Shown here: positions 2,448-12,595 of the stretch, piece after piece
Numbering within the stretch: position 1 is the stretch's first letter
Layout of the letters: every line of letters starts with the position of its first letter
DNA from: Methanomicrobiales archaeon
GTDB taxonomy: Archaea; Halobacteriota; Methanomicrobia; Methanomicrobiales; Methanospirillaceae
Assembly: GCA_012729535.1 (NCBI GenBank)
Contig: JAAYCY010000009.1
Location: 1 to 64,000, forward strand
Reading direction: 5' to 3'
DNA: 64,000 bases
Position numbers and translations under genes: made by a program
Notes under the pieces: generated by a model
Database searches by the model: none
The model's input: only the letters and a program-made list of their open reading frames with translations
What the model was told of the DNA's origin: nothing

Positions 2448-3269
2448 TTATGTTAGCCGTAACCCTGACTGGTAGTCAAATGCCTTGGAGAATTTTATAA
2501 TCCCGCCACTTACTGTTGCTTTATCTTTCATCTGGTTAGTTGCAGCGGTTTGGTTCCAGTTGGCCCCATCATCCCTCGCTTCCATGATGTTTGCAGAGAA
2601 CTCGGTACTTGCTGTTCCGACTGCGTACCCAAGTCCTGATACCGGGTTTGGAGTCAGGTCAATCTGGTATGACATAGCTGATGGTACCGACCCATCTGCT
2701 GCGACAATTCTCGCCTCTGCCTTTGTTGAGACCTGGGCACTGTTGATGTTCACCAGGGAACTTTTTGCACGAACCGTGTTACAGAACGCTGGCGCTGCAG
2801 CAGAGCTGCCTGATGAGAAAACACACCGCATGATATTATCAGATTCGGTATAATTCCCTCCGGTGCTCATCTCCAAAAGCTCTTCTGCAACCAGGTGACT
2901 ACCTTCGATACTCTCATAACTGTACACCTTTTCGGCTTCAAAATTATGCGCCCCTCTGGCTTTATTACCTGAATCAAAGTCCACAGAACCGCTCAGTGTC
3001 AGGTGACCACCATTCGTCATGAGCGAATCATGATAGAGTAATGAACCAACCTTTTCGTTTGGTCCGAAAACCTTGTTTTGAAGTCTATCTGATGAAATTG
3101 TCCAGTCAAACGTTGTTTCAGTTCTTACAAATCCGATAACGTCGATCAGGGTCGTGATTGCAATACGTTGATTTTCCGGAGTTGCGTTCGGCAAAAAATC
3201 CGCACATATCGGCACCGGTATTAAAAACAGAGCCAGAATTATAACATATAGTATCCGAATACGAAACAT
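2448..3269 (-). CDS. Secreted envelope protein, smaller paralog of the 5923-6999 product
   Basis: This 273-residue protein has a clear signal peptide (MFRIRILYVIILALFLIPVPICA) and no other membrane segment. It is a shorter paralog of the protein encoded at 5923-6999. Shared features are the PENQ...TTLIDV start of the mature chain, DSLMTNGGHLTLSGSVDFDS, the LVNINSAQVSTK block, and a cysteine pair with exactly 13 residues between them (RC...AFCN). Compared with the paralog it lacks an insertion of roughly 80 residues after the first strand. It carries three N-glycosylation sequons (NAT near residue 28, NYT and NQT further on), whereas the larger paralog has none. The repetitive, beta-prone composition and the neighbouring aglB suggest a cell-envelope role. 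A sheath or surface-layer component is a reasonable hypothesis for Methanospirillum, but I cannot confirm it. It is probably co-oriented with aglB rather than strictly co-transcribed, since a gap of 83 bases separates them. Confidence 0.8.
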   Translation of the reverse strand: MFRIRILYVIILALFLIPVPICADFLPNATPENQRIAITTLIDVIGFVRTETTFDWTISSDRLQNKVFGPNEKVGSLLYHDSLMTNGGHLTLSGSVDFDSGNKARGAHNFEAEKVYSYESIEGSHLVAEELLEMSTGGNYTESDNIMRCVFSSGSSAAAPAFCNTVRAKSSLVNINSAQVSTKAEARIVAADGSVPSAMSYQIDLTPNPVSGLGYAVGTASTEFSANIMEARDDGANWNQTAATNQMKDKATVSGGIIKFSKAFDYQSGLRLT

Positions 3270-3352
3270 ACCCCACCCACAGATGCAAAACGTATAGTTG
3301 GTGGTCGAGTATAAGAAGTTACTGAGTGTGTAAAAAGGGGAGAGAAGAGAGA

Positions 3353-5785
3353 TTATATATAATACTTCAAGATCTGTGATTCATCAACATCGAACGTCTT
3401 ATTGGTTTCAATTACCCGGTATGGCCCGGTTGCCCTGACATCGTATGGTGAATTGGTAGTTGAGTATGGAAGGGTAAAGGTGTTGTTGATACTCTGCTGC
3501 CGGTACGTGAAATGACGACCCTGGTTGGAGACAAGGGGAAGTTCTACTGTACCGGTCCCGGGAATTGTATAGCCTTTTACATGCTCGAATATCTTGATGT
3601 TATGAATCTCTGCATAACTCAGGTTTGAAACGATCTGGGGTGATTCATATACTAACCGGTATGAGGTAAGTGCAGGGACATCCACACAGGACCGGGTATA
3701 ATTAAACGAAACTTCATCCTTTTGAAGGTAATGGGAAAGATCTTTCTGAAGTCTTAGCTGTTCTTCGGTTATGATCATAGAAGCATTCACGTTACCGTAT
3801 GGAATATCAACATAAGAAATTTCATTCCTCTCAGTTGCTTCCTGGAACGAGCCGTCGAAATAATGCATCCTGGTAAACATGGACAAGAAGAACGAATCAC
3901 GTAACCCTTTTATCGGGACCAGATTGTCGTTTATTTTCCGGTAATAAGTGTAAATATAAGATTCAATTGGATACTTCATGTGTGACCATAAGGCGACGGT
4001 AGGGTATATAAGACTCAGATCATAATTGGTCACCACGTATTTTCCTTTATATGAAGTTATAATGTTATTAGCTATTGATTCATTAGTTGCAAGCAAAAAT
4101 GATGCAGATACTCTCGCACCCCTATTTTGTTGTGGAGTTCCAAGTGGCATCCGGTTTCCCAGTGTCAGGATATAGTTCCCAAATCCCCACCAGTTAATAG
4201 TATTATATGCCTCCTTCGGGTATGAAAACGTCTCACGGTCATATATCGCATAATAATCAATTCCCGGACTTGTTGTATTCTCTTTTAGCCAGAGTGTGGT
4301 GTCCACCCAGTCACTTTTTATCGATTTTCCATAAAATGTCGGGAGTACATAGAATGCGGTGGAAAGAGAAATAATGTAAAATGCACAGGATATTAGTATC
4401 ACGAGTATAAGTCCGATTTTTTTAGGAGTGAGTGAAGGTTTTTTGGAAGGAATTTTTCGTTTCTCCAGGAATTCTGTTGTTTTCAGGTAAACCATGTCAA
4501 GACATATGGCGGATAAAATGCAGACAATCGGGCCTTCATAGTACTGGTACCTGACCTGCATGATGGATATTATCGAAATAAGAGTAGCCCAGATAAAAAA
4601 GAACAAGAGTAGTCTGTTTTTATTCCGGTACAATGCATGACAGACGATGATAAAACCAATGATTGAAAGAGCGATTGCAATATTATAACTGAGTACTGCC
4701 CGGAGAAGTGATATCGGGCTGAGTTCATCTATCCCTGTTGTATCATATGATATCAGGAAAAAGTTATCAAAGGCATTTGAAAATGAAGTAATTATCGTTG
4801 ATACCGACTGAAAGGCAGCGACAAGACAGATTCCAATGATAATAATAAGACCGGTGAGGATGTACCGGCTGCTTTTGTCCTTGTAAACGACATACCCTTT
4901 TAGTGAATACAGGAGGGCTGATGCAACCATTATTGCAAATGCTACTGCTATGGCTCCATAACTGTACATCTGGATTGAGAAGCCCTCATATGGAATTCCG
5001 GAAATACCGTACAGTATTGAAAATGTTGTGAAGATGATTATCTGTGCTTCTAGCAGCCGGAAAATATTTCCAAGGTCTTTTTCAAGTATCGTAAAAAAGA
5101 GGAAAAAAAGTGAGATGGTTAATGCCACCACCATAATGGTAGGAATGTTCATGTATCCAAGGAAGAAGAGAAATCCGGTCAGAATGCTTAAAAAAACCAT
5201 CTCCTTCGGAATTGATTCTCGAGTACCTGCGGTAACACTCCGGATGATGAAAAGATATACCAGGATACATGCAAATGAGAGGATGACTTCAAGTATGTGG
5301 TGGTCAAGGTTTCCGTACATCGAACGGTATAAAAACTCTCCACAGACAACCGACACAAAAACTGCTGACAATATGCCTACTCTCTGGTTCCAGACTTTTT
5401 TTCCTATAAGGTAGCAGATTGGGATCATTACCAGAAACAGGACCGGTGGGATCCATGAAACAAGCCTGATGATTTCACCCTGGGTGGTAACGCCAAAGAG
5501 AGTGCATAGCGTTGCACAAATGAACGGCAAAAAGGGCCCCCATTGGACATTCTGTCCGTATGGGTAATTCACCATGGGATCAAACCATGCATATGCCGGG
5601 TAATTGTGGACGACCTGTTCTATCTGCCTTATCGTATACCAGGGATCCTCGTGCATAACAATAGGAGCTGCTAATGAAGAAAAATCAAGCAGAGTTTGGA
5701 GACGGAAAAAAAAGCCAATTGCAGCGGATAATATAACACAGAATAAAATGAGAATAAAACTATTCTTTCTATTCAGGGAAAACAT
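3353..5785 (-). CDS. aglB: AglB/STT3-type oligosaccharyltransferase
   Basis: This 810-residue integral membrane enzyme transfers a lipid-linked oligosaccharide to asparagine in N-X-S/T sequons of exported proteins at the outer face of the membrane. The N-terminal part has many membrane helices. The first external loop carries the metal-binding acidic motif (MHEDPWYTIRQIE, about residue 45), and a DHH...E motif (LDHHILEV) follows near residue 160. A TGIDELSP segment fits the T-I-x-E-type motif of loop EL5. After the last helix a soluble C-terminal domain begins near residue 480. It contains WWGFGNYI where the family signature is WWDYG, so the acidic residue of the signature is replaced by glycine. 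Length is normal for archaeal AglB. The gene sits between two paralogous secreted-protein genes on the same strand, which suggests these or other envelope proteins as substrates. A pseudo-enzyme is possible given the signature change, but the metal-site residues look intact. Confidence 0.9.
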   Translation of the reverse strand: MFSLNRKNSFILILFCVILSAAIGFFFRLQTLLDFSSLAAPIVMHEDPWYTIRQIEQVVHNYPAYAWFDPMVNYPYGQNVQWGPFLPFICATLCTLFGVTTQGEIIRLVSWIPPVLFLVMIPICYLIGKKVWNQRVGILSAVFVSVVCGEFLYRSMYGNLDHHILEVILSFACILVYLFIIRSVTAGTRESIPKEMVFLSILTGFLFFLGYMNIPTIMVVALTISLFFLFFTILEKDLGNIFRLLEAQIIIFTTFSILYGISGIPYEGFSIQMYSYGAIAVAFAIMVASALLYSLKGYVVYKDKSSRYILTGLIIIIGICLVAAFQSVSTIITSFSNAFDNFFLISYDTTGIDELSPISLLRAVLSYNIAIALSIIGFIIVCHALYRNKNRLLLFFFIWATLISIISIMQVRYQYYEGPIVCILSAICLDMVYLKTTEFLEKRKIPSKKPSLTPKKIGLILVILISCAFYIISLSTAFYVLPTFYGKSIKSDWVDTTLWLKENTTSPGIDYYAIYDRETFSYPKEAYNTINWWGFGNYILTLGNRMPLGTPQQNRGARVSASFLLATNESIANNIITSYKGKYVVTNYDLSLIYPTVALWSHMKYPIESYIYTYYRKINDNLVPIKGLRDSFFLSMFTRMHYFDGSFQEATERNEISYVDIPYGNVNASMIITEEQLRLQKDLSHYLQKDEVSFNYTRSCVDVPALTSYRLVYESPQIVSNLSYAEIHNIKIFEHVKGYTIPGTGTVELPLVSNQGRHFTYRQQSINNTFTLPYSTTNSPYDVRATGPYRVIETNKTFDVDESQILKYYI

Positions 5786-5888
5786 ACCCAGTATTTGTTT
5801 CTAAAGACACATAACAGTGTATCTTCATATTCGAGTATCAACAAAGAAACGGGAAAAAAAACAAACTTATTAACATTAATGGGAAAGA

Positions 5889-5907
5889 ACTCAAAAAAAA
5901 ATTAAAA
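5889..5907 (-). terminator. T-run terminator
   Basis: Nine consecutive Ts on the minus strand (5893-5901) lie about 20 bases past the stop of the gene ending at 5923. There is no strong stem. This fits archaeal poly-T termination. Confidence 0.5.
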
Positions 5908-5922
5908 TCAGAGATTTAAGGA

Positions 5923-6999
5923 TTAGAACTTAAATCCTGATTCGTAGTTGAAGGTCTTCTGGAAGTTCTTGATACCGCCAGTGACGGATGCAGAGTCCTT
6001 CCAGTTATTGGTTGCAGATTGTTCCTGGTTCTTTCCACGTGCTTCCATGATGGAGCCGCCGAAGAGAGTCTTTACAGTTCCGTCTGCAAATCCACTGCCA
6101 GAGTTGCTGTCAGGGGTGACTGCTATCTGGTAGTTCAGCATTGCCGGAATGTCACCGGAGCTTGCAACACTACGTGCTGCTCCCTTGGTGGAGACCTGTG
6201 CACTGTTGATGTTTACAAGTTCGCTCTTTGCCTTGACAACATTACAGAATGCTGGGAAGATCGGGCTCTTTGCTGCTGCGAAGACACAGCGGATGGTATT
6301 AGCGGTTGATTCCCAGTTGCCTGCAACATCAAGAGTCCACTCTTCTGCACCAACAAGGTGTGCACCTTCGGTGCTTGCATAGGTCAGAACTTTCTCAACT
6401 TCGAGGTTGGAAAGGCCCTTGCCCTTGTTCTGTGAGTCAAAGTCAATGTTCTTGTTGAGTGACAGCTTGCCACCGTTGGTCCGGAGTGAGTCAGTCCAGG
6501 TGAGGATCATGATCTCTTCGGTTGGAAGGAGTGCACTGTTGTGGATTGCACTTAACTTCTTAGTTGCAGTGGAGACATAGTTGACTGTATCATCAGCTAA
6601 TGCTTCATAAAGTTCACCCCATGTTAAGGTACCGATATTGCTGTTGATTTTATCGTTTTCCATCCATGATGGGAATGAAATTGAGCTGATTGCTCCATCG
6701 TCAGTAATAGTTCCAGTTACAGGGCCTTTGGTAATTGCTGCATTAATTGCTGCTGCATAATCTGCATAATCAGCGGTTGCAGCTCCTACAGCAGTTGAAG
6801 TATACTGAGTGTACTCGCCATCCATAAGGGTCCACTGCATTTCGCTCTCTTCGCTGACTGCACCAGTGACATCGATAAGGGTGTCAATGGTAAAAATCTG
6901 GTTCTCTGGAACCTGTGACGGGAGACGGTCTGCTGATGCAAACCCGCTGACCGCAACAAGTGCAACCAGTGCTAAAACAATTGCGTATCCGAACTTCAC
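5923..6999 (-). CDS. Abundant-type secreted envelope protein, candidate sheath/surface component
   Basis: This 358-residue protein starts at a GTG (6999), chosen because a near-perfect Shine-Dalgarno (GGAGG) lies 8 bases upstream and the signal peptide MKFGYAIVLALVALVAVSGFASA begins there. The mature chain is rich in Thr, Ser, Ala, Asn and Gly and looks beta-strand-rich. It shares the blocks PENQ...DTLIDV, DSLRTNGGKLSLNKNIDFDS, LVNINSAQVSTK and a conserved C-x13-C pair with the paralog at 2448-3269. It has an extra central segment of about 80 residues (AATADYADYAAAINAAIT onward). It has no N-X-S/T sequon at all. The strong ribosome binding site, a clear TATA box and a hairpin in the short leader suggest high expression. 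I recognise no named domain. A structural protein of the Methanospirillum sheath, which is built of beta-rich, disulfide-containing subunits, is an attractive but untested assignment. Confidence 0.8.
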   Translation of the reverse strand: MKFGYAIVLALVALVAVSGFASADRLPSQVPENQIFTIDTLIDVTGAVSEESEMQWTLMDGEYTQYTSTAVGAATADYADYAAAINAAITKGPVTGTITDDGAISSISFPSWMENDKINSNIGTLTWGELYEALADDTVNYVSTATKKLSAIHNSALLPTEEIMILTWTDSLRTNGGKLSLNKNIDFDSQNKGKGLSNLEVEKVLTYASTEGAHLVGAEEWTLDVAGNWESTANTIRCVFAAAKSPIFPAFCNVVKAKSELVNINSAQVSTKGAARSVASSGDIPAMLNYQIAVTPDSNSGSGFADGTVKTLFGGSIMEARGKNQEQSATNNWKDSASVTGGIKNFQKTFNYESGFKF

Positions 7000-7020
7000 G
7001 TAAATTTCCTCCTACATTTC

Positions 7021-7073
7021 ATGCTGATACTCTCAGCATCAACAAAACAAGGTTGTGAGTATCCTAATAAATA
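7021..7073 (-). promoter_or_regulatory. TATA box and leader hairpin of the secreted protein gene
   Basis: On the minus strand a TATA-like CTATTTATTA lies at 7065-7074. Archaeal spacing would put the transcription start near 7040, giving a leader of about 40 bases. That leader begins with a perfect 7-bp inverted repeat, ATGCTGA / TCAGCAT with a 5-base loop (7021-7039), which ends 9 bases before the GGAGG. A hairpin so close to the 5' end may stabilise the mRNA. The start site itself is inferred. Confidence 0.55.
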
Positions 7074-7305
7074 GTTTCCCAAGAAAAAATTCGACAGATG
7101 TCGTAATCCCCCCTCTCTAAGAGCATGCCGGGAATGAAAAACAAGGTACGAAATTGCAGGTAACTCACGTAATCCATGGGTTTTTCGTGACGAATAATAC
7201 CGGTAAGAGTTGAATCCTTACCGGCTGAAGTCATCGGCATTTTGTATGTACCACATATCTGCCTTCGCAGAATATAATTGCATCAATATTTCGATATCCA
7301 TGACT

Positions 7306-12504: not shown

Positions 12505-12595
12505 TATTTATCCTCTCTGACCGACCTGTAATGGACTTTCGGGATCAGTCCCGTTAGGAATGTAGCCTGATTTCAGGCTGAACCTGGTGAACAGT
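12505..12595 (+). promoter_or_regulatory. Promoter and two-hairpin leader of the L15e superoperon
   Basis: A TATA-like TATTTA lies at 12505-12510, which would put transcription start near 12532. The resulting leader of about 60 bases holds two perfect small hairpins in a row: CGGGA-TCAG-TCCCG at 12540-12553 and AGCCTG-ATTT-CAGGCT at 12564-12579. The second ends 6 bases before the GGTGA ribosome binding site of the L15e gene. The layout suits control of translation, perhaps by a ribosomal protein, but that is inference. Confidence 0.5.

Follow-up and report, generated by a model that had tools for sequence, protein, structure and literature searches.

Sequon-free capped and sequon-bearing capless SH genes around a divergent aglB at the main sheath locus of a Methanospirillum

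Introduction

In the 64,000-nucleotide stretch of archaeal contig JAAYCY010000009.1 analysed here (the window), two genes for homologous exported proteins flank a gene for the oligosaccharyltransferase AglB, and only the smaller protein carries N-X-S/T sequons. This arrangement raises the question of whether the two proteins are sheath subunits, one glycosylated and the other kept free, and whether the enzyme encoded between them marks the pair. The source genome (3.09 Mb) belongs to the genus of M. stamsii and M. hungatei JF-1 and is thus assigned to Methanospirillum. The sheath subunit SH/MspA of JF-1 (Mhun_2271, WP_011449234.1) was identified by mass spectrometry, which found it in purified sheaths (PMC6242892), and was fitted into cryoET density (PMC6242892, PMC10593813).

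Results and discussion

Identity of the two SH proteins

The open reading frames of both paralogs and of aglB all lie on the minus strand (Table 1), where an earlier note on this DNA had placed them. One related genome was taken as JF-1 on the exact match of its SH residues: the 377-aa protein encoded at its syntenic locus has T86, S144, N157, C257 and C271, as published for JF-1 SH (PMC10593813, PMC6242892). Since the large gene lies at the same locus as this residue-exact match, and its product is similar to JF-1 SH over the full length, we regard it as the SH/MspA ortholog. The sheath role that the earlier note had put forward for the large paralog is thus established by orthology, at the level of sequence, with an experimentally known sheath subunit. 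The large SH and the JF-1 protein have in common their locus, gene neighbours, leader, signal peptide, cysteine pair and capped length class, and differ in that the cap sequence has diverged. The large gene would accordingly be expected to encode the bulk subunit, a ring protein with two amyloid-like sheets, a cap facing outward and a cysteine pair linking the rings; this architecture is experimental for the JF-1 ortholog and predicted, through orthology, for the large SH. A PDB sequence search with the large SH gave no match and Pfam has no family for either SH protein; an Imm10 match (E=0.04) fell below that family's own cut-off and was taken as chance. Predicted structures from five-row alignments (pLDDT 36 for the large and 46 for the small SH) were too poor to place the sequons.

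Table 1. Positions of the sheath-locus features in the window
Feature	Position	Strand	Basis
Small gene, capless SH paralog, 273 aa, C149/C163	2448..3269	-	homology; one clade with seven relatives
Sequon NQT239-241, small SH	2547..2555	-	N239 is a sequon in 34/37 capless SH with N there
Sequon NYT139-141, small SH	2847..2855	-	NYT/NYS in all seven hungatei-stamsii-group orthologs
Sequon NAT28-30, small SH	3180..3188	-	N28 is a sequon in 30/30 capless SH with N there
aglB, sheath-locus clade, 810 aa	3353..5785	-	Pfam, PDB match, tree
WWGFG replacing WWDYG in AglB, residues 532-536	4178..4192	-	alignments
Large gene, ortholog of the major sheath subunit SH/MspA, capped, 358 aa, C238/C252, no sequon	5923..6999	-	orthology and synteny with JF-1 SH; low ENC
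Cap-domain insert of large SH (approximate), residues 59-152, absent from small SH	6544..6825	-	alignment; cap defined in JF-1 (PMC10593813)
Leader of large SH gene; hairpin 7021-7039, AGGAGG 7008-7013	7000..7061	-	five-species identity, copy number, fold z
GGGAAACTATTTAT, TATA/BRE-like box of large SH gene	7067..7080	-	identical in five species; putative promoter

The small and large SH are 50% identical over 210 residues (E=2e-69), with a separate N-terminal match besides, and both have the C-x13-C pair and the block LVNINSAQVSTK, so that the homology claimed from these features holds. With its SH core and cysteine pair the small gene belongs among the SH genes, and in having this core without the cap it resembles the capless or small-cap paralogs that were suggested to connect hoops or support plugs (PMC11576556). 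Counting genes down from Mhun_2271, its JF-1 counterpart would be Mhun_2269 and that of aglB Mhun_2270.

In JF-1, K363 (in GGIK) was proposed to pair with D43 of the neighbouring subunit and so to help set ring curvature. All eight members of the small-SH clade have I or V at the K363 position and retain D43; the small SH thus lacks the D43/K363 inter-subunit pair, which is a proposed mechanism of one protein and not a curated family criterion. The lysine loss suggests a minor, specialised subunit that ends or interrupts a ring. Since D43 is kept without a K363 equivalent, the small SH is probably placed where the regular ring ends, at hoop edges or plugs. This loss and the conserved sequons described below are new observations on the small-gene clade, beyond what was reported for capless and small-cap SH (PMC11576556).

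Gene order in related genomes

The order small SH-aglB-large SH was found in five Methanospirillum genomes (the source genome, M. stamsii, JF-1, G001 and G009), so the neighbourhood described from one sequence recurs in relatives. In G011 the two SH genes stand side by side, about 180 bases apart, without aglB. In G008, G004 and G002 the syntenic site adjoins TrmI-like, NAC, PUA and DHH genes; it lacks aglB and is occupied by two capless SH genes, to which G002 adds a third SH that groups with the small-SH clade. The main survey of SH genes found no conserved gene context for them (PMC11576556). We interpret the locus as the main one for the sheath in a Methanospirillum. Next to its counterpart in M. 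stamsii, two near-identical tandem open reading frames (L012, 13726-15689) resemble Rpn/PD-(D/E)XK-type transposase proteins and are candidates for such.

Expression signals of the large gene

Codon use, divergence and the upstream leader agree with the strong expression signals previously noted for the large gene. Its ENC was 41.2, against 54.1 for the small SH and 52.4 for aglB, and in comparisons with G010 and G001 its dS was 0.50-0.56, against 1.4-2.2 for the small SH. The leader is near-invariant: of the 62 bases that precede the large SH start, 61 are identical in five species, and they comprise a 7-bp hairpin beside the AGGAGG ribosome-binding site; in the same species the sequence farther upstream and the stretch before aglB vary freely. 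The region upstream of the small SH is less conserved than this leader.

Nine of 12 genomes contain a single copy of a 28-base part of the leader, exact in eight of them and with 3 mismatches in G005; the reversed control had zero occurrences. The leader always precedes an SH gene, capped or capless; in G008, G004 and G002 this gene encodes a capless SH in which both conserved sites are sequons. Of 200 shuffled versions, 196 folded less well than the leader (z -2.5), whereas RNA structure in the stretch before aglB was no better than in shuffles (z -0.97). The leader had no Rfam match and, judged from its sequence, is a candidate mRNA-stability or translation element. Elsewhere, positions 12540-12589, just upstream of the L15e gene, match the eL15-Euryarchaeota ribosomal protein leader (Rfam RF03144).

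Sequons in capped and capless SH

The count of three sequons in the small protein and none in the large was reproduced: the mature small SH carries NAT28, NYT139 and NQT239, and the large SH has zero against about 4.5 expected by shuffling. Window proteins overall were undepleted, with 36 sequons observed and 39 expected in non-exported proteins and 49 and 46 in those with a signal peptide or TM segment. The contrast between sequon-free and sequon-bearing SH is genus-wide. Thirteen capped SH had 4 sequons against about 53 expected (shuffles 37-75), and their caps alone 2 against 13 (minimum 4 in 500 shuffles); 44 capless SH had 124, slightly below the shuffle range of 135-194, and as all these rows are related and not independent trials, the shuffles overstate independence. 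JF-1 SH has no sequon, its N157, published as a possible glycosylation site, reading N-F-N. Sequon absence is not absolute among orthologs: the M. stamsii large SH has one NVS, in the cap. A family-wide cap/sequon rule was rejected, the contrast not being seen outside Methanospirillum. Sequon depletion of capped SH is not reported in the SH papers covered here (PMC6242892, PMC10593813, PMC11576556).

The sites of the capless proteins are specific. Among their 17 N-rich columns, positions 28 and 239 are sequons almost throughout (Table 1), position 139 in 15/35 and position 102 in 5/25, and the other 13 never; the +2 S/T is retained and the middle residue varies. The published SH topology places D43 and K363 at the inner rim. 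N28 precedes the D43-bearing strand and N239 lies in the loop before the strand ending at K363, which would place both near the outer, cap side. After export, the small SH would probably receive N-glycans at two or three of its loop sites from one of the AglB enzymes of the cell. Capped SH are kept free of sequons, and the probable reason is that glycans would interfere with the assembly of a densely packed ring covered by caps. Differential glycosylation of the SH pair is, on these sequence data, plausible.

The small-SH sequons could also be unused, or the protein a near-silent leftover of an ancestral capless SH, the pattern reflecting descent and not function. Transcription of the JF-1 SH genes other than Mhun_2271 and Mhun_1947 is very low (PMC11576556), the small gene has ordinary codon use without the bias of the large one, and capped and capless SH are largely separate on the SH tree, all in agreement with such a history. 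On the other hand, purifying selection acts on the small SH (dN/dS 0.08-0.12), and the retention of the +2 residue, beside 13 N-rich columns that are never sequons, also speaks against this reading. Moreover, three low-cap proteins nested inside the capped clade have 3-4 sequons, at other positions. We consider this explanation unlikely and retain a minor, probably glycosylated capless SH as the preferred reading.

Capless SH are expanded in G008, G004 and G002 (e.g. L189, L192, L198 and L204), with up to 41 matches per genome, many with both sequons. A viral contig (L205, 6007-6873) encodes a capless SH-like protein with 39% identity to the small SH and an N-terminal NQT sequon; no SH relative was found in phage records. 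Viral counterparts of sheath proteins were reported for other viruses (PMC11576556).

The AglB encoded between the SH genes

The middle gene is an aglB, as named from its sequence at the outset: PF02516, PF22627 and PF18079 all scored above the curated cut-off. Its product is a full-length homolog (E=5e-51) of A. fulgidus AglB-Long (PDB 5gmy/7e9s; PMC8342417), with the AglB core and AglB_L1 domains and the conserved catalytic and metal-site acidic residues, namely the first-DXD Asp (DPWY), DHH and the TIXE Glu. It differs from AglB-Long in WWGFG for WWDYG, in the first T of TIXE, which is G, and in the DK-motif lysine, which aligns with arginine; the WWDYG motif of the Ser/Thr pocket is thus altered. 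The hydroxyl of the +2 Thr is bound by the WWD residues in PglB, an enzyme that loses its activity when the motif is mutated (PMC3527161). From its sequence the sheath-locus enzyme is an AglB homolog, and canonical sequon specificity is not claimed for it.

The motif reads WWGFG in the source genome, WWNFG in M. stamsii, WWTSG in JF-1, SWEYG in G009 and WWDYG in G001. It is altered in four of the five sheath-locus AglBs against 1/29 other AglBs of the genus (Fisher p ~6e-4, run with 27 intact, on rows that are not independent). Outside the genus, WWD[YF]G was present in 59 of 70 AglBs sampled within the order, a sample biased to low scorers and to the same family; in most variants it is the first W that is lost. 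Loss of WWDYG as a unique feature was rejected, since variants also occur in divergent AglB paralogs of the order. JF-1 also encodes a very divergent 768-aa AglB-like protein (L088, 892-3198) with TPWVYG instead of WWDYG. That archaeal AglBs with varied conserved motifs may perform different transfer reactions was already remarked (PMC5131992); an altered-motif AglB at the sheath locus is not described in the published literature covered (PMC6242892, PMC10593813, PMC11576556).

The five sheath-locus AglBs group as a single clade (SH-aLRT 99) in a quick tree that warns of long branches meeting there. Between JF-1 and G009 the sheath-locus aglB gave dN 0.37, dS 1.56 and dN/dS 0.24, whereas dS was 0.17-0.58 in five neighbouring genes, both SH genes among them, and 0.27, 0.35 and 1.0 in other aglB pairs. 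This divergence fits the replacement of one allele, under purifying selection; neutral decay was rejected because the open reading frames are full and dN/dS is about 0.24.

The position of aglB may have no functional tie to the sheath, the gene having been inserted once between tandem SH genes in one clade and then having stayed. The lack of aglB at the syntenic site of G008, G004 and G002 and between the SH genes of G011 would be expected from this, as would the survey result that SH genes have no conserved context (PMC11576556). Against it stands that five genomes retain aglB at this place and that purifying selection has kept the gene intact despite its strong divergence; we judge it improbable.

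More doubtful is that the neighbouring AglB serves specifically to N-glycosylate the sequons of the small SH, the large SH being kept free: the conserved neighbourhood, the intact catalytic acidic residues and the WWDYG of G001 speak for it, but the motif is altered in the other four genomes, the small SH of G011 has four sequons without an aglB between the SH genes, the capless lineages hold sequons with no aglB at the locus, and AglBs with normal WWDYG are encoded in the same genome. Given the divergent clade and the altered motif, this is an unsafe reading, and in its simple version the adjacent enzyme is a poor candidate for glycosylating the small SH. Thus, of the differential glycosylation proposed in the earlier note, the sequon contrast stands, and extends through the genus, whereas the role of the AglB between the paralogs as the enzyme marking the pair is not supported as stated.

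The joint explanation that we prefer, and hold at about even confidence, combines a sequon-free bulk SH, a minor, capless and glycosylated edge SH, and an AglB with changed specificity or role. This AglB is a divergent paralog under purifying selection with an altered +2 Ser/Thr pocket, most likely changed in acceptor specificity or role and not the standard oligosaccharyltransferase for the small SH. A bolder version, in which the pocket was reshaped several times (D to G, N, T or E) towards relaxed or new acceptor specificity on sheath proteins, giving the sheath a glycosylation code of its own beside the canonical N-X-S/T code of the cell, is at present quite speculative.

Conclusions

For the most part the locus adds a further example of known sheath biology, the sheath protein being already known. 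The parts worth testing are the split between sequons and cap, the altered oligosaccharyltransferase and the leader. The analysis yields a locus conserved in one clade and a testable rule, that capped SH avoid N-glycan sites and capless SH keep two. Besides these it offers a candidate subunit for edges or plugs, and a set of natural oligosaccharyltransferases in which the Ser/Thr pocket has changed. Should the sheath-locus AglB prove active, it would illustrate how sequon specificity can shift in nature.
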